Shown here: positions 5,066-63,357 of the stretch, one piece after another | Position numbering within the stretch: the stretch's first letter is position 1 | Layout of the letters: each line of letters begins with the position of its first letter | Source of the DNA: Dietzia cinnamea NBRC 102147 | GTDB taxonomy: Bacteria > Actinomycetota > Actinomycetes > Mycobacteriales > Mycobacteriaceae | Direction: 5' to 3' | DNA length: 64,000 bases | Assembly: GCF_001571065.1 (NCBI RefSeq) | Contig: NZ_BCSW01000010.1 | Coordinates: forward strand, 1-64,000 | The notes under the pieces: generated by a model | Database searches by the model: none | What the model was told of the DNA's origin: nothing | The model's input: the letters and a program-made list of their open reading frames with translations, nothing else | Position numbers and translations under genes: made by a program

Positions 5066-6932
5066 CGAACACCTCCTGGCAGAACTGGACCACCCGGTCG
5101 CCGAGACGCTGCCGGTTGGCCAATTTCACGAATTCATGACCTTCGTCCTCGAACAGCAGGACGTCCACCGGTACGCCGCGCCGGCGCAGGAACTCCACGG
5201 CCTGATCGGTCTCGCTGAGCGGCACATTGGTGTCGTGCGCGCCGTGGACGAAGAGCATCGGGACGTCCACGTGGTGGTACCGCCGTAGGGGCGAGACCTC
5301 CCGCAGTAGCTCACGTTCCTGGAGCGGGTTGCCGTACTTGGGGTAGGCGGCCGCGGCGATCCACGGCTCGGTGGTGCGGTAGAAGGTCTGCAGGTCGCTC
5401 ATCCCGCACGCGGCGATTCCGCCTCGCCACCTGCCGGGGTGGCGGACCAGGGTGGCGTTGACCAGGTAGCCGCCGTAGGACCGGCCCGAGACCACCGCCC
5501 GGCCTGGATCGGCGATGCCCTCGTCGATCAGGTGCAGCAACGCGTCCTCGACATCGTCGATGCCGGAGAAGCGACCGTAGCGGTCGTCGGCGTGACTGAA
5601 GAAACGCCCCGAGCCGGTGGAGCCGCGCACGTTGGGCAGGAAGTAGTTCACGCCGATGTCGAGGTAGCGGCGGGCGATGTCGTTGTACCCGGGGCGCGAC
5701 TGCCCCTCGGGACCGCCGTGGAGGTGGACCACGGTCGGGCCCGGTTCGTCGCCGATGTCGGGACGGTAGAGCCAGCCGCTGAGCTGGAGCCCGTCACGGG
5801 CGGTGAACTCGACCAACGTCGGCGCGGGGTCGGGTTGCTCGGGCGGCCGCCCGGTCCACCTGCGGTTGTCCACGTCGTACATCACCACGCGCGGCGGCTG
5901 GTCGAGGCTCTCGATGGTGAGCGCGAGCAACCGGCCGTCTGCGGTGAGCGTGGGTGAGGTCGCCACGACCTCGGGCAGCGGTGGCCGAACGATCACGCGG
6001 GGGCGCTCCGGCCGTAGGTCGAGGACCTCGATCTCCGACAGACCACCGCGCACGTTCCACAGCAGCACCGCGGTCGAGCGGTCCAGGCTCACCTCGACGC
6101 GGTCGAGATCGGCGTCGGTGCGGAACGCCACCGGCCAGGACTCGGTGGAGTCCTCGTCCGCCTCGACCGCGAGCAGGCCCATCCGGTCCGCCGAATGGTC
6201 GCTGCGGACGACCATCCGCATGGGACGGTCGTCGTCCCCCGCGTCGAGGATGACCCCGGCGTCCGTGGTGGAGCCGGTGTCGACGGGTAGCAGTGGCCAC
6301 CACCGGCCGTCGGGGACGATGCGCAGCAACTCGCGGTTACCGCGGGCACCCACCCGGAACAGCGCGGCTCCGTCCCACGCGTGGACCAGTGCACCGCCCA
6401 TCCGTCGATCGACGACGGTGTGCTCCCCGGTCTCGGGGTCCACGAGGCGGCCCTCGGCCAGGCCCTCGGAGTCGAACGCCGTCACCGCGAGCAGGTCGCC
6501 GTCCCAGCCGACGATCTGGACGGTGGCGTCGCCCACGGTGTCGACGGGGTAGACGTCGTGATCGTCGGGGTCGGTGGTGACCAGCCAGATCCGTTCGCGC
6601 TCGCCGCCGTCCGGGGCGACCTCGCAGGCGAGCCACCTGCCGTTGGGCGAGTAGGCCACGCGGCGCACGGGGCCGTCGACGGGCAGCACGACGTCGCGCT
6701 CCGGCCCGGCCCCGTCCAGCCCACCCGGCCCCAACGGCCGCTGCACGGCGCGCGGGTAGCCGGTGCGCTCGGTGACCACACACGCCAACATCGACCCGTC
6801 GGGCGACAGGTTGGGGGACGTGGTGTGGCGGATCTGGGTGGCCCCCCCGGCGGCGTCGTCGGGTGGTCCCGCGACGTCGCGGGACTCGGCCTCCTCGGTG
6901 ACCTCGACGTCGACCTCGGTGGTGTCAGGCAC
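5043..6932 (-). CDS. S9-family (prolyl oligopeptidase-like) serine peptidase
   Basis: The 629-residue protein has an N-terminal beta-propeller-like half (repeats such as SPNGRWLACEV and SPDGSMLACV) and a C-terminal alpha/beta-hydrolase half. The catalytic triad can be read as GRSYGG (Ser485), HGAHDTN (Asp567) and DEGHEF (His599). The oxyanion region is HLHGGPEGQ. No export signal is visible. The gene overlaps the upstream ligase gene by 8 bp and the downstream M20 gene by 23 bp, so all are translationally coupled. It probably cleaves or remodels short peptides or acyl-peptides; specificity is unknown. Confidence 0.88.
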   Translation of the reverse strand: MPDTTEVDVEVTEEAESRDVAGPPDDAAGGATQIRHTTSPNLSPDGSMLACVVTERTGYPRAVQRPLGPGGLDGAGPERDVVLPVDGPVRRVAYSPNGRWLACEVAPDGGERERIWLVTTDPDDHDVYPVDTVGDATVQIVGWDGDLLAVTAFDSEGLAEGRLVDPETGEHTVVDRRMGGALVHAWDGAALFRVGARGNRELLRIVPDGRWWPLLPVDTGSTTDAGVILDAGDDDRPMRMVVRSDHSADRMGLLAVEADEDSTESWPVAFRTDADLDRVEVSLDRSTAVLLWNVRGGLSEIEVLDLRPERPRVIVRPPLPEVVATSPTLTADGRLLALTIESLDQPPRVVMYDVDNRRWTGRPPEQPDPAPTLVEFTARDGLQLSGWLYRPDIGDEPGPTVVHLHGGPEGQSRPGYNDIARRYLDIGVNYFLPNVRGSTGSGRFFSHADDRYGRFSGIDDVEDALLHLIDEGIADPGRAVVSGRSYGGYLVNATLVRHPGRWRGGIAACGMSDLQTFYRTTEPWIAAAAYPKYGNPLQERELLREVSPLRRYHHVDVPMLFVHGAHDTNVPLSETDQAVEFLRRRGVPVDVLLFEDEGHEFVKLANRQRLGDRVVQFCQEVFDVRTQEE

Positions 6933-9567
6933 GGTGAATCCAGGTGTCCTTTCCGCCGCCTCCGCTCGAGGCGTTGACGACCATGGTGCCCGCCGGGGCC
7001 ACGCGCGTCAGTGCGACAGGCGGGGCCGTGGCGGCGATCTCTCCCCCCTCACCGTGCCGCAACATGACGAACGCCCGCATGTCCACGTGGCGACGCTGCA
7101 GTTCGCGGCCGTCGAACGTCGGCAGGGTGGACAGCGACTGCACCTCTTGCGCGACGAACCGGTCCCCGTGGCGGCGCAGCTCGTCCCGACGCTCGTCGAG
7201 CTCCCGGGGCGAGCATTCCGGGCCCACGGTGATGTCGGACCCGCCGTAGCCGTCGATCGGCTTGACGACCAGCTCGCCGAGCCGGTCGAGGACCTGTCGA
7301 CGCTGGTCCGGGTCGGCGCACAGGTACGTGTCGACCTGGCCGATGAGAGGCTTCTCGCCCAGGTAGAAGTCGATGATCTTGGGGACCATGGCGTAGATCG
7401 CCTTGTCGTCGGCGGCACCGTTGCCGGGCGCGTTGACCACGGCGACGCCGTGCTCCGCCATCGCGTTCAGAAGCCCACTGCGCAGCGCGGTGCCATCTGC
7501 GCCCGTAGAGGACAGGAGCATCTCCTCGTCCATACGGACGTAGAGCACGTCGATCTTCTGCCGCTCCCCGCCCTCGACCCGCCACAGGGCGGAGTCCTCG
7601 CACACCAGGTCCGAGGGCGTCACCAGGGTGCCACCGACCGCCTCCGTGACACTCTTGAGGTCGTACGCCTCGAGTTCGTCCTCGGCGACCACCACGCCGA
7701 TGGCGGGATCGTCGACCCCCTCGGGCGCGGCCGCCCGCAGGGTGTCGGTCAGCATCGCCAGCGCCTCGCGGGGGTCGTGGACCTCCGACCGCGCACCGAA
7801 CTCGGGGAAACCCTCGGCGATCCGGTCGCGCAGTGCGACCGCCATCGCCATCCCCCCGGGCATCCGCAGGTTGTCCTCGAGCACGATCCACTCGCCCGGC
7901 GCCGTGGAGACCAGGTCCACGCCACACACCGGGGCGTGGAGGACGCCCTCGGGCACCGCGCGTCCGGTGGGACGGAACCCCGGTGCGCGCTGGAGCGCCT
8001 CGGCGGGGACCACGCCGGCCCGGCTGATCTCGCCCGCCCCGTAGATGTCGCGCAGGAACATCTCCATCGCGCGCGCCCGCTGCTCGATGCCCGCAGAGAT
8101 CCGCGCCCATTGGTCAGCCGGGACGATCCGCGGGACGGAGTCCAGCGGGAAGACCTGCGGCTCGTCCTTGCCGTACACCTTGAGCGTGATGCCCATGGAG
8201 CGCAGCGTGTCGTCCACCTGCTCCTTACGCTCGCACAGGACCTCGGGGCCCATGTCGGACACGGACTTGAGCAGGTCCACGTACTCGGGCCGCGGGGTGC
8301 CGTCCTCGGAGATGGCCTCGTCGTGCACCTCCTCGGTGACCGCCTCCCCGAGCGGCGAGTAGGAGGCGAGCATGTGTCGCATCCCGCGGTCGTCGGCGGT
8401 GTCCCGGGGGCGGATCCGCTCGACGGTCTCGGCCAGCAGGACGGCGATCACGTCGCTGCGGCGTCCCCGTCGGCGGTGCGCCGCGCGTTGGCGGGTGGCC
8501 GAGGTCGCGGAACCGCGGACCCCGTCGAGCAGGTTCAGCACCAGGTCGAGTTCGCCTCCGGCCCGGAGGTGGTCGACGTGGTCGTCGACCAGTCCGGTGA
8601 GCACCTCGGTGGCGGGGCGGGGGCGCCCGGTCGCCACGTCCACGAGGTCCCCCTCGAGTCCGGAGCGTGCGGCGCGCCAGAACGCCGCGGCCAGCACGGC
8701 GTCGGAGGGTCCGTCCCACCCACCGGATCCGGAGTCCTGACCGGCGTCCCGTTCGGCGAGGACGCGGTCGACCGCCGCGCGGAACAGGGCGGCGACGACG
8801 ACGAGGGTGTCGATCGTGCTGCAGGAATCGCAGGCCACGAGTTCGATCCCGTCCCCGTCCCGGGCGGGGCGGACGTCGACCGCGATCCCCTCCCGTCCCG
8901 CGACCACGCCGGTGGCGACGATCTCGTCCTCGCAGGCGAGCGCCTCGTCGGCGGTGTCGGCGGCATAGGCGGGCAGGTGTGCGGGCGACCACTGGCTCTC
9001 GAAGTAGCGGGTGGAGGCGTACCCGGAATCGGTGCCGTCGGCCCAGTAGGGGGAACTCGCCGACAGTGCCAGCAGCACCGGCGCGAGGGCGGCGACCCGT
9101 CGGGCCGCGTACTGGGCCTCGTCGGCGTCGGCGGTCTCGACCACCACCCGGAAGCCGGCCGAGGCGCGGGTCTGCGACTCGCGGCCCGGCGCGGGGTGGG
9201 GGTCCTGCGGGGCGGGGTCGAACTCCACGCCGGGCGAGGCCAGCGACCCTGCCGCGACCACCCCGGTCCGCAGTCCGTTGGCGGCCTCCGCCAGGCGGGT
9301 CCGGTTGCGGCGGAGGGTGTCCCCGAGCTCGCCGAGCCCGGTGTGGGCGCCCGCGTCCGCGACCACGATCGCGCCGTGTTGCTCCGGCCGGACGTGGCCC
9401 TCCTGTCCCCGTTGCCCGGTGTCGCCGAGAGCGGCGAGCACCTCCGTTGCCCGCCGAACCGGTCGCCGGGTCCTCGTGTCGACGAGGTGGAGTTCCTCTT
9501 CGACTCTGATCCATCGCTGTGCGTCGGTCATCATTCCCACGCTAAGCGAACCCGGGCGAGCCCGCAC
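6925..9567 (-). CDS. Fused GCS2-type carboxylate-amine ligase / circularly permuted ATP-grasp protein (copy 1)
   Basis: This is an 880-residue two-ligase fusion. Residues about 20-390 resemble the YbdK/glutamate-cysteine-ligase type 2 fold (RVEEELHLVD at 21-30, LALSASSPYW.DGTDSGYAS). Residues about 430-880 are a circularly permuted ATP-grasp domain (GVDLVSTAPGEWIVLEDN, NAPGNGAADDKAIYA, ELVVKPIDGYGG with Lys769, RRHVDMRAF). Each domain type forms amide or peptide bonds with ATP. The usual His-x-His strand of YbdK proteins reads GFRVVVE here. It starts 31 bp after the paralogous gene and overlaps the S9 peptidase gene by 8 bp. Met12 or Met13 are alternative starts. The product is unknown. Confidence 0.85.
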   Translation of the reverse strand: MRARPGSLSVGMMTDAQRWIRVEEELHLVDTRTRRPVRRATEVLAALGDTGQRGQEGHVRPEQHGAIVVADAGAHTGLGELGDTLRRNRTRLAEAANGLRTGVVAAGSLASPGVEFDPAPQDPHPAPGRESQTRASAGFRVVVETADADEAQYAARRVAALAPVLLALSASSPYWADGTDSGYASTRYFESQWSPAHLPAYAADTADEALACEDEIVATGVVAGREGIAVDVRPARDGDGIELVACDSCSTIDTLVVVAALFRAAVDRVLAERDAGQDSGSGGWDGPSDAVLAAAFWRAARSGLEGDLVDVATGRPRPATEVLTGLVDDHVDHLRAGGELDLVLNLLDGVRGSATSATRQRAAHRRRGRRSDVIAVLLAETVERIRPRDTADDRGMRHMLASYSPLGEAVTEEVHDEAISEDGTPRPEYVDLLKSVSDMGPEVLCERKEQVDDTLRSMGITLKVYGKDEPQVFPLDSVPRIVPADQWARISAGIEQRARAMEMFLRDIYGAGEISRAGVVPAEALQRAPGFRPTGRAVPEGVLHAPVCGVDLVSTAPGEWIVLEDNLRMPGGMAMAVALRDRIAEGFPEFGARSEVHDPREALAMLTDTLRAAAPEGVDDPAIGVVVAEDELEAYDLKSVTEAVGGTLVTPSDLVCEDSALWRVEGGERQKIDVLYVRMDEEMLLSSTGADGTALRSGLLNAMAEHGVAVVNAPGNGAADDKAIYAMVPKIIDFYLGEKPLIGQVDTYLCADPDQRRQVLDRLGELVVKPIDGYGGSDITVGPECSPRELDERRDELRRHGDRFVAQEVQSLSTLPTFDGRELQRRHVDMRAFVMLRHGEGGEIAATAPPVALTRVAPAGTMVVNASSGGGGKDTWIHRA

Positions 9568-59261: not shown

Positions 59262-59651
59262 ATGACATCCCCCGAGTTCGGGGAGCTCGACGACCCGCTC
59301 GAGCGACTGGAGCGGAACGAGCGTCAGGGCAACCAGGCGTTCCGGTTCGTGCTGCTGTCGGTACTGGCGATCGTGGCGCTGGTCGTCGCGATCGTGCTGA
59401 TACGCGGCGGCGTCGGGGACGAGTGCGCTGACGAGGGTGCCCTGTGCCTGACCTCCGACCGCGTCGAGGTGGTCATCATCCCGCTGCTGCTCTCGATCGC
59501 GCTGGCCATCACGTCCGCAGTGAAGACGTACCGGCGGTGGCAGGCGCGGATTCGCTGGCGGCCGTGGCTGTACGCGACCTACGCGATGTGGATGGTCACC
59601 ACCGCGTACCTGCTCATCTCGTCCTCGGCGGTGTTCGTCCAGCGGGGCTGA
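59262..59651 (+). CDS. Small membrane protein of unknown function
   Basis: The 129-residue protein has three predicted membrane helices (RFVLLSVLAIVALVVAIVLI, VVIIPLLLSIALAITSAV, LYATYAMWMVTTAYLLISS) and an acidic N-terminus. Its ATG starts immediately after the SDR stop codon (TGAATG), so it belongs to the SnoaL-SDR operon. No family recognised. It is the last gene before the low-G+C cassette. Confidence 0.75.
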   Translation: MTSPEFGELDDPLERLERNERQGNQAFRFVLLSVLAIVALVVAIVLIRGGVGDECADEGALCLTSDRVEVVIIPLLLSIALAITSAVKTYRRWQARIRWRPWLYATYAMWMVTTAYLLISSSAVFVQRG

Positions 59652-59697
59652 GGGCGGCACCGAAAACACGCGATTCGTCTGGTAGTAATCTCAGTAG

Positions 59698-60687
59698 ATG
59701 AGTGTCCGAAAGCCCAGCCAATTGAGCGATTCACTTCGGGACCGAATTGATGTAAGCGACTGGAGCATTTCCGCACGGGAGACCCTCGGCAGCGATGCTG
59801 GGGAATGGCTCGTGGATCCCTCGGGCAGACGGTGGCTGCACAAGAGGGTTCGTACGCACGCTACCCATGTAGACGGCGAAGACTGGGCAGAGGTCGCGAC
59901 CACAGCTGTCGCGGATCGGCTTACGGTTCCCGCAGCCCGCACACGACTTAGCTCCCGCAGGGGCGTCAACGGGTCAATTTCATTGCAGGTCAACAACCCA
60001 GAAACTCACGACTTTATCGAGGGGACTCTTTTGCTCCTCGATGTTCTCAACATAGACGTACAGAAATCACGCAAGTCGGGCGGCTCGACGTTCGTTCGAA
60101 CCGGGCACTCACTCGAGAACATCAAAGCAGCCTTGAACGGTGTTCGGCCGCCCAGCACCTTCGTAGGCCCAGCTGACTTCTCGGCCTTCGACGTGTTTGC
60201 CGGGTACATATGCCTCGACGCACTGGTCGCCAACAGAGACCGGCACGAGCAAAACTGGGCGGTCCTCGAGCCGCGCTTGACTGGAGGAGACTTAGAACTT
60301 GCGCCGTCTTTCGACCACGGAAGCGCTTTGGGCTACAACCTAACGTCCGAGCAGCGCCAGCGTCTCCTTGCTGACACTGACCGCCTGATGCGATGGGTGG
60401 AGAGGGGCACAGCGTACCGCCTAGAGCACCGGAAACCGCCTGGACCTCTCACCCTCTTAGAGGCAGCAGTCACGGCGTTGAGACTAGCGACCCCGGCTGC
60501 CAGAACCCACTGGTCAGAAGCCGTGGCTAGCTTCGACGTCGCCGATTTCTCGCAGCAGCTTCCTCCCGCGATACCCCAGGCTGACGGGGCTGCCTGCCCG
60601 CAAGTGTCAGACCTCGTACCTACCATGATCACCAGACTGCTAGAGATCAACCAGAGGAGGTTCTGCGATGCCATCGCCAACCTGTGA
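59698..60687 (+). CDS. HipA-like Ser/Thr kinase-fold protein
   Basis: The 329-residue kinase-fold protein resembles the C-terminal domain of HipA toxins. It has a candidate ATP-binding lysine in RRWLHKRV (Lys49), a helix glutamate (EDWAEVATT, Glu66), the catalytic loop VANRDRHEQNW (Asp181, Asn186) and the metal-binding FDHGSA (Asp206). It lacks the usual HipA N-terminal part, which appears instead in the next gene. Sampled bases are about 48-58 % G+C against about 70 % outside, so the cassette was probably acquired. The target is unknown. Its end overlaps the next gene by 20 bp. Confidence 0.75.
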   Translation: MSVRKPSQLSDSLRDRIDVSDWSISARETLGSDAGEWLVDPSGRRWLHKRVRTHATHVDGEDWAEVATTAVADRLTVPAARTRLSSRRGVNGSISLQVNNPETHDFIEGTLLLLDVLNIDVQKSRKSGGSTFVRTGHSLENIKAALNGVRPPSTFVGPADFSAFDVFAGYICLDALVANRDRHEQNWAVLEPRLTGGDLELAPSFDHGSALGYNLTSEQRQRLLADTDRLMRWVERGTAYRLEHRKPPGPLTLLEAAVTALRLATPAARTHWSEAVASFDVADFSQQLPPAIPQADGAACPQVSDLVPTMITRLLEINQRRFCDAIANL

Positions 60688-61510
60688 GCGCACTGTCGTC
60701 CGCGGAAACAAGGTTACTGGTCGGGACCTCCTCGTACTCTGGCAGCACCCAGTGACGCGCGCAATCAAAGTCGTTGGACGCCTCCAATTCGATGGACGGA
60801 CGTACACCTTTGGATATACCAACAGCGCCGAGGAGTCATTCGATAACGGATTCCGCGGCCTGCCAGGGCTCCGCGCACGGGGCCGGATTTATAGGTCCGA
60901 GAGTCTTTTCAAGGTGTTCTCGCAGCGGACTCTTGATCCTGCGCGATCGGACTTTACTCGCCACTTGGAACAGCTCGGTCTCGACGAGGCTTCGACACCG
61001 CTTGAGCAAATCGTGCACTCAGGTGGGAGAAGAGCCGCCGACACGATTCAACTCCTCGAGGTTCCGCGAGCATTGAACGGCGCAATTGAGTCAACGTTCT
61101 TGGCGCACGGAGTTCGTCACATCCCCACGCGCCCTCTCAATTTTGAAGATGGCTCGCGCAGTGTCTCTGGCATAGAGCACGAGAGAGCGCTTAGGAACAT
61201 TCAAGGAGGGGATAGACTCGGTCATCGCATTGAGTCGGGAAACAAGAGCAATCCTCAGGCGACCATCTTGACTTCATCCGATGATGTACCGCTCGGATAT
61301 GTCCCCGATGTGCTCGTAAGAGGTGTTCGATCAGTAATCGACCGGGGCGAGAGCATTGAGTTCCGCGCTCTCAGAGTAAACGGACCAGACGCACCGCCCC
61401 ACCTTAGACTCCTTGTGCGCATGATTGCCCATTCCGACCAACGCGACGTGTTCGATGAGGCGGATTGGAACTTCGCCGCTGGTAGTAGCGAGGATTCCGA
61501 TGAGCGATAG
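60668..61510 (+). CDS. HipA-N-like/HIRAN domain protein
   Basis: The 280-residue protein has two parts. Residues about 20-105 (LLVLWQHP.., VVGRLQFDGRTYTFGYTNSAEESF, RIYRSESLFKVFSQRTLDPARSDF) resemble the N-terminal segment of HipA. Residues about 140-235 (STFLAHGVRHIP.., ALRNIQGGDRLGHRIESGNKSNPQATI, PLGYVPDVL) fit a HIRAN domain, known in DNA-repair enzymes to bind DNA 3' ends. AGGAGG precedes the ATG. It overlaps the kinase gene by 20 bp and the exonuclease gene by 11 bp. It may regulate the kinase and recruit the nuclease to DNA; this is inference. Confidence 0.65.
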   Translation: MPSPTCERTVVRGNKVTGRDLLVLWQHPVTRAIKVVGRLQFDGRTYTFGYTNSAEESFDNGFRGLPGLRARGRIYRSESLFKVFSQRTLDPARSDFTRHLEQLGLDEASTPLEQIVHSGGRRAADTIQLLEVPRALNGAIESTFLAHGVRHIPTRPLNFEDGSRSVSGIEHERALRNIQGGDRLGHRIESGNKSNPQATILTSSDDVPLGYVPDVLVRGVRSVIDRGESIEFRALRVNGPDAPPHLRLLVRMIAHSDQRDVFDEADWNFAAGSSEDSDER

Positions 61511-62132
61511 TCACACGCACCAAATACTCGAAGGCGATATAGACGCACCGACCTTCGAGGCATATATATCCGCTGGGCGCATCGCGGTCGACACAGAGAC
61601 GAGCGGACTCTCGTGGGCTGCCGACCGACTGAATCTCATACAACTGTCGGCACAGTCAGTCGGCGGCTCGCTTGTCCGACTTTCTGCCGGCGCAGCGCCC
61701 CTACTAAAGGACCTGCTCGAATCTCGAGATGTAGTCAAAATTTTCCACTTCGCGCCTTTCGATCTTCGATTTATAACCCAACTAGGAGTGGCGCAAGCCC
61801 AAAACATCCGGTGCACCAAGACGGCCTCTAAGCTGTTAGACCCGCAATTAGATCCAAAGCAACATAGCCTGAGAGCGTTGCTTCTCAGGAAGCTTGGGGT
61901 CGAAATCACAAAAGGCGAGGCCCGAACGAGTGACTGGTCGGCTAGGTCACTCAGCGATTCGCAGATTCGATACGCTCTGGACGACGTAGCGCACTTAGAG
62001 CGCCTCCACTCGAAGTTGGAGAAAGAGCTGGAAGAGCGTTCGCTGATCGAGCTCTACCGTCAGATCTGCGATTACATCCCCATAGACGCGCTGCTTGAGA
62101 CGTCGGGTGTACCGAATCCCCTTAGCTACTGA
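61500..62132 (+). CDS. RNase D-like DEDDy 3'-5' exonuclease
   Basis: The 210-residue exonuclease domain has Exo I RIAVDTETSGL (Asp31, Glu33), Exo II FHFAPFDLRFI (Asp88) and Exo III SDSQIRYALDDVAHL (Tyr158, Asp162). All four acidic residues and the tyrosine of the DEDDy class are present. It has no HRDC domain, so it is shorter than housekeeping RNase D (about 375). ATG at 61500 lies inside the end of the HIRAN gene, behind GAGG. It is the last gene of the low-G+C cassette, 30 bp before an IS630 element. Confidence 0.82.
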   Translation: MSDSHTHQILEGDIDAPTFEAYISAGRIAVDTETSGLSWAADRLNLIQLSAQSVGGSLVRLSAGAAPLLKDLLESRDVVKIFHFAPFDLRFITQLGVAQAQNIRCTKTASKLLDPQLDPKQHSLRALLLRKLGVEITKGEARTSDWSARSLSDSQIRYALDDVAHLERLHSKLEKELEERSLIELYRQICDYIPIDALLETSGVPNPLSY

Positions 62133-62159
62133 GTGTCAGCCTAACTTCACAGTCGCCAG

Positions 62160-63257
62160 CTAGTGGTCCGCATTTGAAGTCTTCTTACGGTTGGCTTTCT
62201 TGAGGACTTCGTCGGCGGTTTTCGTCCAGACGAAGGGGTGGGATCGGTGGTTCCAGCCGTCGATGAAGGCGCGGATCTTCGCGTTGAGGTCCTTGACGGA
62301 TGTAAAGATCCCACGGCGGATGGCCTGGCGTTCGACGATGCCGAACCACACCTCGACCAGGTTCATCCACGACGCGTGGGTGGGTGTGAAGTGGACCTTG
62401 AACCGGGGATTTTCGGCCAGCCAGGCCTTGACGTTTGCGTGCTTGTGGGCGGCGTAGTTGTCCATCACCAGGTGCAGCTCAACTGGCTGACCGTCGGCAT
62501 CGACGACATGACGGTACGCCCGCTCGATCTGCTTCAAAAACGCCAGGAACTCCTGGTTCCGGTGACGCGGTTTGAGTGCGGCGGTGACCTGACCGGTGGC
62601 GATGTCCAGCGCCGCGAACAGGGTGCTGGTGCCGTGCCGGACGTAGTCGTGGCTGCGCCGCTCGATCAGGCCGGGCTGCATCGGCAAGATCGGCTGAGTA
62701 CGATCCAGTGCCTGGATCTGGGACTTCTCATCCACGCACAACACGATCGCGTTCTCCGGCGGCGCCAGGTACAGGCCGCAGATGTCGGTGACTTTGCCGA
62801 CCAGCTCAGGATCGGTGGAGAACCGGAACGACTCCGAGCGCCACGGCTTGATCCCGTAGGCACGCCACGCCGTGACCACCGTCGAGGCCGAGACCTTCAA
62901 CCGGGACGCCAGCAGCCGCGACGACCAGTGGGTCACGCCCAGAGACTTCGGCGGCGGCATCAAGGTCGCCGTCACGATCTCCGCGTGATCGATCGTGCGC
63001 GGCCGACCAGAACGCTTCTCATCAGCCAGGCCCCCGATGCCCTTGTCCTCGTACCTGGACCGCCAGAGGTTCACCTTCGGCCGCGACGCCCCGGCCAACT
63101 CGGCGATCTCCGCATTACGCCGGCCCTCCGAAGCCAGCAGCACGATGCGAGCTCGCTGCACCATGCCTGCCGACATCGACTGCGAGCGCGTCATTCTCTC
63201 AAGCTTCTCGCGATCGCCGGGACGCAACATCAATGCCGGGGCAGGTCGATTCGCCAT
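62160..63257 (-). CDS. IS630-family transposase
   Basis: The 365-residue DDE transposase has an N-terminal HTH (RRNAEIAELAGASRPKVNLWRSRYEDKGIGGL with GRP linker) and a second HTH (LASRLKVSASTVVTAWRAYG). The catalytic residues stand in VLCVDEKSQ (Asp), HLVMDNYAAHK (Asp) and NLVEVWFG (Glu). It appears intact. The stop codon TAG is formed by the TA target duplication plus the next host base. ATG at 63257 is chosen (GGGG upstream); a GTG at 63272 is an alternative. Confidence 0.92.
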   Translation of the reverse strand: MANRPAPALMLRPGDREKLERMTRSQSMSAGMVQRARIVLLASEGRRNAEIAELAGASRPKVNLWRSRYEDKGIGGLADEKRSGRPRTIDHAEIVTATLMPPPKSLGVTHWSSRLLASRLKVSASTVVTAWRAYGIKPWRSESFRFSTDPELVGKVTDICGLYLAPPENAIVLCVDEKSQIQALDRTQPILPMQPGLIERRSHDYVRHGTSTLFAALDIATGQVTAALKPRHRNQEFLAFLKQIERAYRHVVDADGQPVELHLVMDNYAAHKHANVKAWLAENPRFKVHFTPTHASWMNLVEVWFGIVERQAIRRGIFTSVKDLNAKIRAFIDGWNHRSHPFVWTKTADEVLKKANRKKTSNADH

Positions 63258-63308
63258 GCCCCATGATTTCACAAACCCAACTGTAAAACTACTTCACACG
63301 CACGACAC
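62163..63308. mobile_element. IS630-family insertion sequence (complete)
   Basis: The element runs from GTGGTCCGC (62163) to the matching inverse end at 63308 and is flanked by TA on both sides (62161-62162 and 63309-63310), the target duplication expected of IS630. Including the flanking CTA, the ends agree at about 24 of 35 positions (CTAGTG..., ...TTGAAGT..., ...TTAC.GTTGG). It contains one intact transposase gene. It separates the kinase/HIRAN/exonuclease cassette from leuS. Confidence 0.87.
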
Positions 63309-63357
63309 TAGCCGCTGGAGAGCGTCCCATCGGTCACCGCCGACTTCGCATTCGAGG

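Follow-up and report, generated by a model that had tools for sequence, protein, structure and literature searches.

The question raised by this locus is whether three overlapping genes of low G+C content in Dietzia cinnamea, found in a 64-kb stretch of one contig (the window), constitute a new system. The original prediction had read them as a HipA-like kinase, a HIRAN protein and an RNase D-like exonuclease, acquired horizontally and belonging to no described system, with defence or toxin-antitoxin activity as the natural hypothesis. The three open reading frames, their coordinates and their overlaps (20 bp between genes 1 and 2, 11 bp between genes 2 and 3) are exactly as claimed (Table 1), and the functional hypothesis is retained as such. 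The claim of novelty did not hold, as genes 1 and 2 correspond to the hipIN module (PMC8262856) and to the PADLOC system PDC-M03, and the trio was reported in 2025 (PMC11706625); the cassette represents a variant form of a candidate defence module already known, and not a new system. New in this work are the placement of gene 3 in a supported sister clade of the diDNases, mostly with Phe or Tyr for the EXOII His-81; the recovery, in the HipIN tree, of the same eight linked loci as in the gene 3 tree; a dinuclease gene that is codirectional in D. cinnamea only and convergent in 11 of 12 clusters; and relatives lying in restriction operons (type I, type ISP and GmrSD).

Table 1. Features of the cassette and its surroundings, in positions of the window.
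Feature	Position	Strand	Remarks
hipI-like gene (gene 1)	59698..60687	+	329 aa
hipN-like gene (gene 2)	60668..61510	+	280 aa
diDNase-like gene (gene 3)	61500..62132	+	210 aa from ATG
Acquired insert, between core membrane-protein gene and leuS	59653..63355	.	breakpoints versus congeners
IS630-family insertion sequence	62159..63312	-	transposase and terminal inverted repeats
IS630 transposase	62160-63272	-	NF033545, 7.8e-74
Possible -10-like TAGTAAT directly before the hipI ATG	59682..59697	+	read from sequence

The G+C content of the cassette (59698-62132) is 57.7%, compared to a mean of 70.6% (SD 2.4, minimum 65.1) in equal-size segments of the 64-kb window outside the insert, and GC3 is 0.59-0.67 in its genes versus 0.93 in two flanking genes. 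DNA identity to congener L101 (94.5-97%) ends sharply at 59652 and restarts at 63356; since the alignment to the closest congeners breaks and returns at these positions, a gain of 3.7 kb is delimited, in place of which those congeners carry an intergenic stretch of about 145 bp that contains an inverted repeat. A search for variable presence, suggested in the original prediction, showed that, in all 22 sampled congeners, leuS lies next to the membrane-protein gene (59262-59651), with neither cassette nor insertion sequence. Both the anticipated drop in base composition and the horizontal gain were thus borne out: the cassette was acquired horizontally and recently, and is intact in D. cinnamea. 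The adjoining IS630 was also as described, bearing its own terminal inverted repeats (62159-62198 and 63273-63312; 40 nt, 73% complementary), and a relative 66% identical to it lies on another contig (C53) of the same genome. It adjoins the cassette as an element of its own and is not shown to be its vehicle; a composite transposon with the cassette as cargo was rejected, given these inverted repeats and the lack of a matching insertion sequence on the left. Phage origin was likewise rejected, as the phage collection had no close gene 3 homologue; gene 2 found there only Vibrio tectivirus-like prophages (23-24% identity), and the viral contigs yielded one gene 3 relative (40%), without hipIN, and no gene 2 homologue. 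The -10-like element would, we infer, give a leaderless hipI transcript.

The hipIN module was described as HipN encoded downstream of a small kinase that lacks N-subdomain-1 (Gerdes, Baerentsen and Brodersen, 2021, PMC8262856). Gene 1 agrees with that kinase in lacking N-subdomain-1 and in having the catalytic and Mg-binding motifs, and gene 2 agrees with the downstream partner in its HipS-like N-terminal domain and C-terminal HIRAN. Actinobacterial members and a proposed defence role were already part of that description; D. cinnamea adds a third codirectional gene to a layout reported as bicistronic. The adjacent genes 1 and 2 also match the PADLOC models PDC-M03A (7.3e-89) and PDC-M03B (6.2e-68), respectively. 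Our literature searches found no paper on PDC-M03 and no experiment on hipIN.

Pfam HipA_C matched gene 1 at 5.7e-6, under the Pfam cut-off, and matched 16 of 16 aligned homologues, in which K49, N179, D181, R182, H183, N186 and D206 are invariant. The catalytic set (K49, the NRDRHxxN loop with D181 and N186, and D206) is intact, in agreement with the original prediction. In its AlphaFold model (pLDDT 87, pTM 0.89), which aligns to CtkA with Z 25 and to HipT/HipA with Z ~16-17, gene 1 has the predicted fold of a small HipA-type Ser/Thr kinase core without N-subdomain-1, presumably active. For gene 2, the profile searches proposed at the outset for HIRAN and HipA-N gave a divided result: Pfam and NCBIfam returned no match to gene 2 alone, and phmmer returned one chance match only, whereas among its homologues (n = 18) Pfam HIRAN was found in 14 and Couple_hipA in 5. 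The domain assignment of gene 2 rests on these homologues and on a predicted model (pLDDT 87) in which both folds are present, HipS at residues 18-133 and HIRAN at residues 136-267. The HipS part aligns to 8ezr/7vkb (Z 11.7) and 7ab3 (Z 11.3), with an rmsd of 1.9-2.1 over 99-100 residues to HipS structures (Legionella HipS: Z 11.7, rmsd 1.9 over 99 residues), and the HIRAN part to 3k2y (Z 13.1) and to HLTF 4s0n/4xzg (Z 10.9); HamB of Hachiman (8vxy), a further HIRAN-like Foldseek match, was too weak to use (Z 6.5). The models support the anticipated split of HipA, with the kinase core in gene 1 and the HipS part fused to HIRAN in gene 2, which would encode a putative antitoxin and sensor made of HipS (the HipA N-subdomain-1) and HIRAN. 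By analogy, HipBST may be compared, since in its HipS-HipT pair, too, N-subdomain-1 is a protein in its own right that serves as antitoxin to a small kinase; in D. cinnamea, the antitoxin gene is downstream and carries a HIRAN domain, and the insert has no HipB-type DNA-binding gene, its only further gene being the IS630 transposase.

Two positions of the HLTF HIRAN pocket are kept in gene 2: R150 as the counterpart of R71, which we take to be a pocket residue, and N192 as that of N91, the latter being present in 26 of 26 aligned HipN. Others are replaced, namely Y72 by H151, N90 by G191 and Y93 by S194, and across aligned HipN, His usually occupies the Y72 position, the N90 position varies and conservation is absent at Y93 (HLTF residue numbers other than R71 follow PMC4666394). 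Gerdes et al. reported actinobacterial HipN to lack DNA-binding motifs, having proposed the HIRAN of HipN as a sensor of phage DNA ends that sets off abortive infection (PMC8262856). Hence, of the suggestion that the HIRAN domain reads DNA ends, the fold was confirmed, whereas recognition is doubtful because the pocket is kept only in part, and the idea itself was already published.

Gene 3 encodes a single-domain protein with all the DEDDy residues foreseen (D31, E33, D88, Y158, D162), the EXOII motif HFAPFDLRF and Tyr210 as its C-terminal residue. Its best PDB matches are 9qrf, 'ancestor of diDNase' (6.5e-45), 9f7g (1.3e-30), whose chain fits the Nocardioides diDNase of PMC11706625, and 9f7d, 'diDNase' (1.8e-26), with NrnC entries also among the matches. 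It shares the DEDDy core, the 5'-phosphate cap residues and the leucine wedge with diDNase (9f7g, 9f7d) and NrnC (7mpl); the diDNase residues T31, L34, H80, F84, F88, K104, S120, L121 and Y206 (numbered as in PMC11706625) correspond to T34, L37, H83, F87, F91, K107, S123, L124 and Y210 of gene 3. Of the residues named as diDNase-defining, H81, F88 and Y206 (PMC11706625), the last two thus have equivalents, including the C-terminal Tyr; H81 is replaced by Phe84, as in NrnC, and the EXOII motif differs from the HHAxFD(L/I)xF reported for diDNases. Since one of the three defining residues fails, we use the term 'diDNase-like': by its sequence, gene 3 is assigned as a DEDDy dinuclease of the NrnC group, in a sister clade to the HH diDNases and not a diDNase proper. 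NrnC proper, an octameric dinuclease acting on diRNA and diDNA, was rejected too, as its EXOII H(F/Y)(A/G)RFD and C-terminal His are unmatched by HFAPFD, with Pro for Arg, and a C-terminal Tyr. The exonuclease assignment of the original prediction therefore stands as to the DEDDy class; the likeness to RNase D does not, gene 3 being closer to NrnC/diDNase and scoring 68.5 bits with the NCBIfam rnd equivalog (cut-off 298.95) over the exonuclease part only, with length also against it. In diDNaseNoc, the H81F/Y206H double mutant remained active and kept its DNA preference, and F88I abolished activity (PMC11706625); for this reason, gene 3 is best predicted to be a DNA dinuclease even so. The diDNases are described as dimers that hydrolyse DNA dinucleotides specifically.

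Clusters of HipA, HIRAN and diDNase genes have been reported, comprising roughly one in three of 93 diDNase genes, in a study that leaves the functional link among them open (Mortensen et al., 2025, PMC11706625), and the D. cinnamea cassette has the same three adjacent gene types, patchy and island-borne. The search for conserved gene order advised in the original prediction, run over genome contigs, genomes and plasmids, yielded 11 further three-gene clusters, 12 with D. cinnamea, in Flexivirga (L058), Frankia (L059, L062), Occultella (L061), Nocardioides (L063, L076) and a Nocardiopsis plasmid (L095), as well as L127, L128, L129 and L021; in the last (6315-7465, genome G227), hipI is broken by three TGA stops, and hipN and the dinuclease gene are intact. 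That every sampled congener has the site without the cassette, and that the trio recurs at these 11 loci, places the observation beyond chance. Among 395 Actinomycetes genomes, hipI occurs in 12, close gene 3 relatives in 6 and both in 4, so that the diDNase-like gene is found in 4/12 hipI genomes versus 2/383 others (p 7e-6, in a Fisher test that treats genomes as independent). Most sampled hipIN loci have no dinuclease nearby, hence the kinase pair does not depend on one.

In the gene 3 tree, D. cinnamea falls in a clade of nine (97/95), eight of them hipIN-linked; the ninth (L078, 5956-6522) is a second, HF-type dinuclease gene of Occultella aeris, C-terminally truncated and with no detectable hipIN beside it. 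The second EXOII position is Phe or Tyr in seven of the eight linked loci of this clade; the other diDNases examined have His there. The same eight loci form one clade (100/98) in the HipI+HipN tree, with D. cinnamea as the first branch, and this recovery indicates from sequence that hipI, hipN and the dinuclease gene are co-inherited across them. The dinuclease gene is convergent with hipIN, tail to tail and often with gene ends overlapping by 4-7 bp, in every cluster except that of D. cinnamea, and being convergent it lies outside the hipIN transcript there. As more distant linked loci are also convergent, the codirectional order is probably derived, and the adjacency kept through the reversal suggests selection for linkage.

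Following the further proposal to look for placement among defence genes, neighbourhoods were scanned at loci picked by eye among large neighbours, which provides a list and not a rate. Several relatives lie among restriction genes. In a Rhodococcus pyridinivorans plasmid (L098, NZ_CP088976, 2634-7260), the order hsdR-hsdS-hipI-hipN-hsdM is found on one strand; L128 has hsdS-hsdR-hipI-hipN; in L058, the dinuclease gene comes directly after hsdS-hsdR, on the same strand and overlapping by 4 bp; in L031 (8624-14460), a type ISP restriction-modification gene overlaps hipI by 4 bp, with hipN next on the same strand; and in L023 (5948-9600), hipI-hipN is followed by a GmrSD_N-domain gene overlapping hipN. 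This embedding points to defence. In the 64-kb window itself there is no restriction gene beside the cassette, and the single type I R-subunit match of the D. cinnamea genome is on another contig. The distribution of hipIN is patchy and mobile: several loci are on plasmids, some beside other toxin-antitoxin pairs, L024 and L028 have adjoining TrwC relaxase genes, and a HipA-like kinase and HIRAN pair lies beside an integrase in a small tectivirus-like Vibrio prophage (L097, Vibrio phage 10N.222.46.E12_PE001, 11590-13304).

Taken together, we regard as somewhat probable that the cassette is a hipIN kinase-antitoxin module with a co-inherited diDNase-like dinuclease, acting by abortive infection behind restriction, with the dinuclease clearing DNA dinucleotides. 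HipI, by its fold and residues, would be a growth-arresting Ser/Thr kinase; the HipS domain of HipN would bind it, supplying the missing N-subdomain-1 and, if the equivalence seen in the model holds, keeping it inactive as HipS does HipT. The HIRAN half might sense ends or fragments of invading DNA cut by restriction enzymes and exonucleases, and binding of this ligand would free the kinase, which, as with HipA/HipT, could phosphorylate a translation component and so halt the cell, providing a second line behind restriction. The dinuclease would cleave the resulting DNA dinucleotides, either as clearance or to end the alarm. The defence mechanism is favoured by the matches of genes 1 and 2 to PDC-M03 defence-candidate models, by relatives in restriction operons with a patchy and mobile distribution, and by the precedent of PDC-M66/DS-6, a HipA-like kinase paired with a DUF3037 protein in which phage defence is experimental, the kinase is required, and toxicity appears without the partner (PMC12548924); the partner protein differs (it neutralises the kinase there) and PDC-M66/DS-6 has no nuclease. 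The diDNase homology and substrate residues of gene 3 favour the dinuclease role, and the co-occurrence and the matching eight-locus clades favour a three-gene module. The same explanation is weakened by the partly conserved HIRAN pocket, by the many hipIN loci without a dinuclease, by the convergent dinuclease in most clusters, and by the lack of restriction genes adjoining the D. cinnamea cassette.

A less probable reading, although one of real weight, is that gene 3 disposes of DNA dinucleotides as waste after digestion while hipIN guards restriction enzymes in parallel, without signalling between them, for which the PrrC anticodon nuclease with EcoprrI is a parallel. The specificity of diDNases for DNA dinucleotides and the 41.9% of them that have defence genes nearby (PMC11706625) suit this reading, as does the dinuclease gene placed directly after hsdS-hsdR in L058; nevertheless, the D. 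cinnamea genome encodes Orn, a DNA-dinucleotide cleaver in related bacteria, which would make clearance alone redundant, and L098, L031 and L023 carry hipIN and restriction genes without any dinuclease. We consider unlikely a plain toxin-antitoxin or addiction module that stabilises plasmids, ICEs and islands, with the dinuclease as unlinked cargo: the plasmid-borne loci near other toxin-antitoxin pairs, the adjoining relaxase genes and the frequent absence of the dinuclease are in its favour, while the congruent clades and the adjacency kept despite reversal argue against chance cargo, and the restriction operons point to defence. HipA family members cause persistence, and the cassette could thus be a domesticated regulator of host stress or persistence unrelated to phage; its absence from every other sampled congener, its foreign base composition and the defence neighbourhoods elsewhere make this very improbable. 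Equally slight are the chances of a decaying, non-functional island remnant, to which the adjoining IS630 and the broken kinase gene of G227 might be related, as the three frames are intact, with their overlaps and all catalytic residues.

Returning to the preferred reading of a co-inherited module behind restriction, the co-inheritance of hipIN and dinuclease and their ties to restriction operons render testable the question stated in PMC11706625. A concrete candidate for testing, to which we give a low probability, is a shared ligand: HIRAN might read deoxydinucleotides or 3' DNA ends released during DNA destruction, and the dinuclease might erase them. Under this improbable scheme, short DNA fragments would be an alarm with a dedicated off-switch, analogous to the CRISPR type III ring nucleases. 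It is hinted at by the co-inheritance and by the HLTF HIRAN cavity, which takes one ssDNA dinucleotide only (PMC4666394), precisely what diDNases cleave (PMC11706625), and our literature search did not find these two observations connected; the partial conservation of the pocket keeps its odds low. If true, it would account for the existence of a nuclease acting only on DNA dinucleotides and identify what triggers an abortive-infection kinase of the HipA type.

Some further observations concern relatives of these genes. In the Mycolicibacterium plasmid pTY66_01 (L096, 3618-9309), RES-domain genes are found on both sides of hipIN, and an MbcA/ParS/Xre antitoxin gene forms a pair with at least one of them. 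Near the Occultella aeris three-gene cluster (L061, 2598-5201) is an ATPase gene with a weak likeness to LmuB (PADLOC, 2.5e-22). Finally, proteins of ~600 aa (L087, L089, L090, L091 and L093) from Egibacteraceae, Nitriliruptorales and one unplaced actinomycete include an exonuclease domain resembling gene 3, in which the motif reads HHxxFDLRF.
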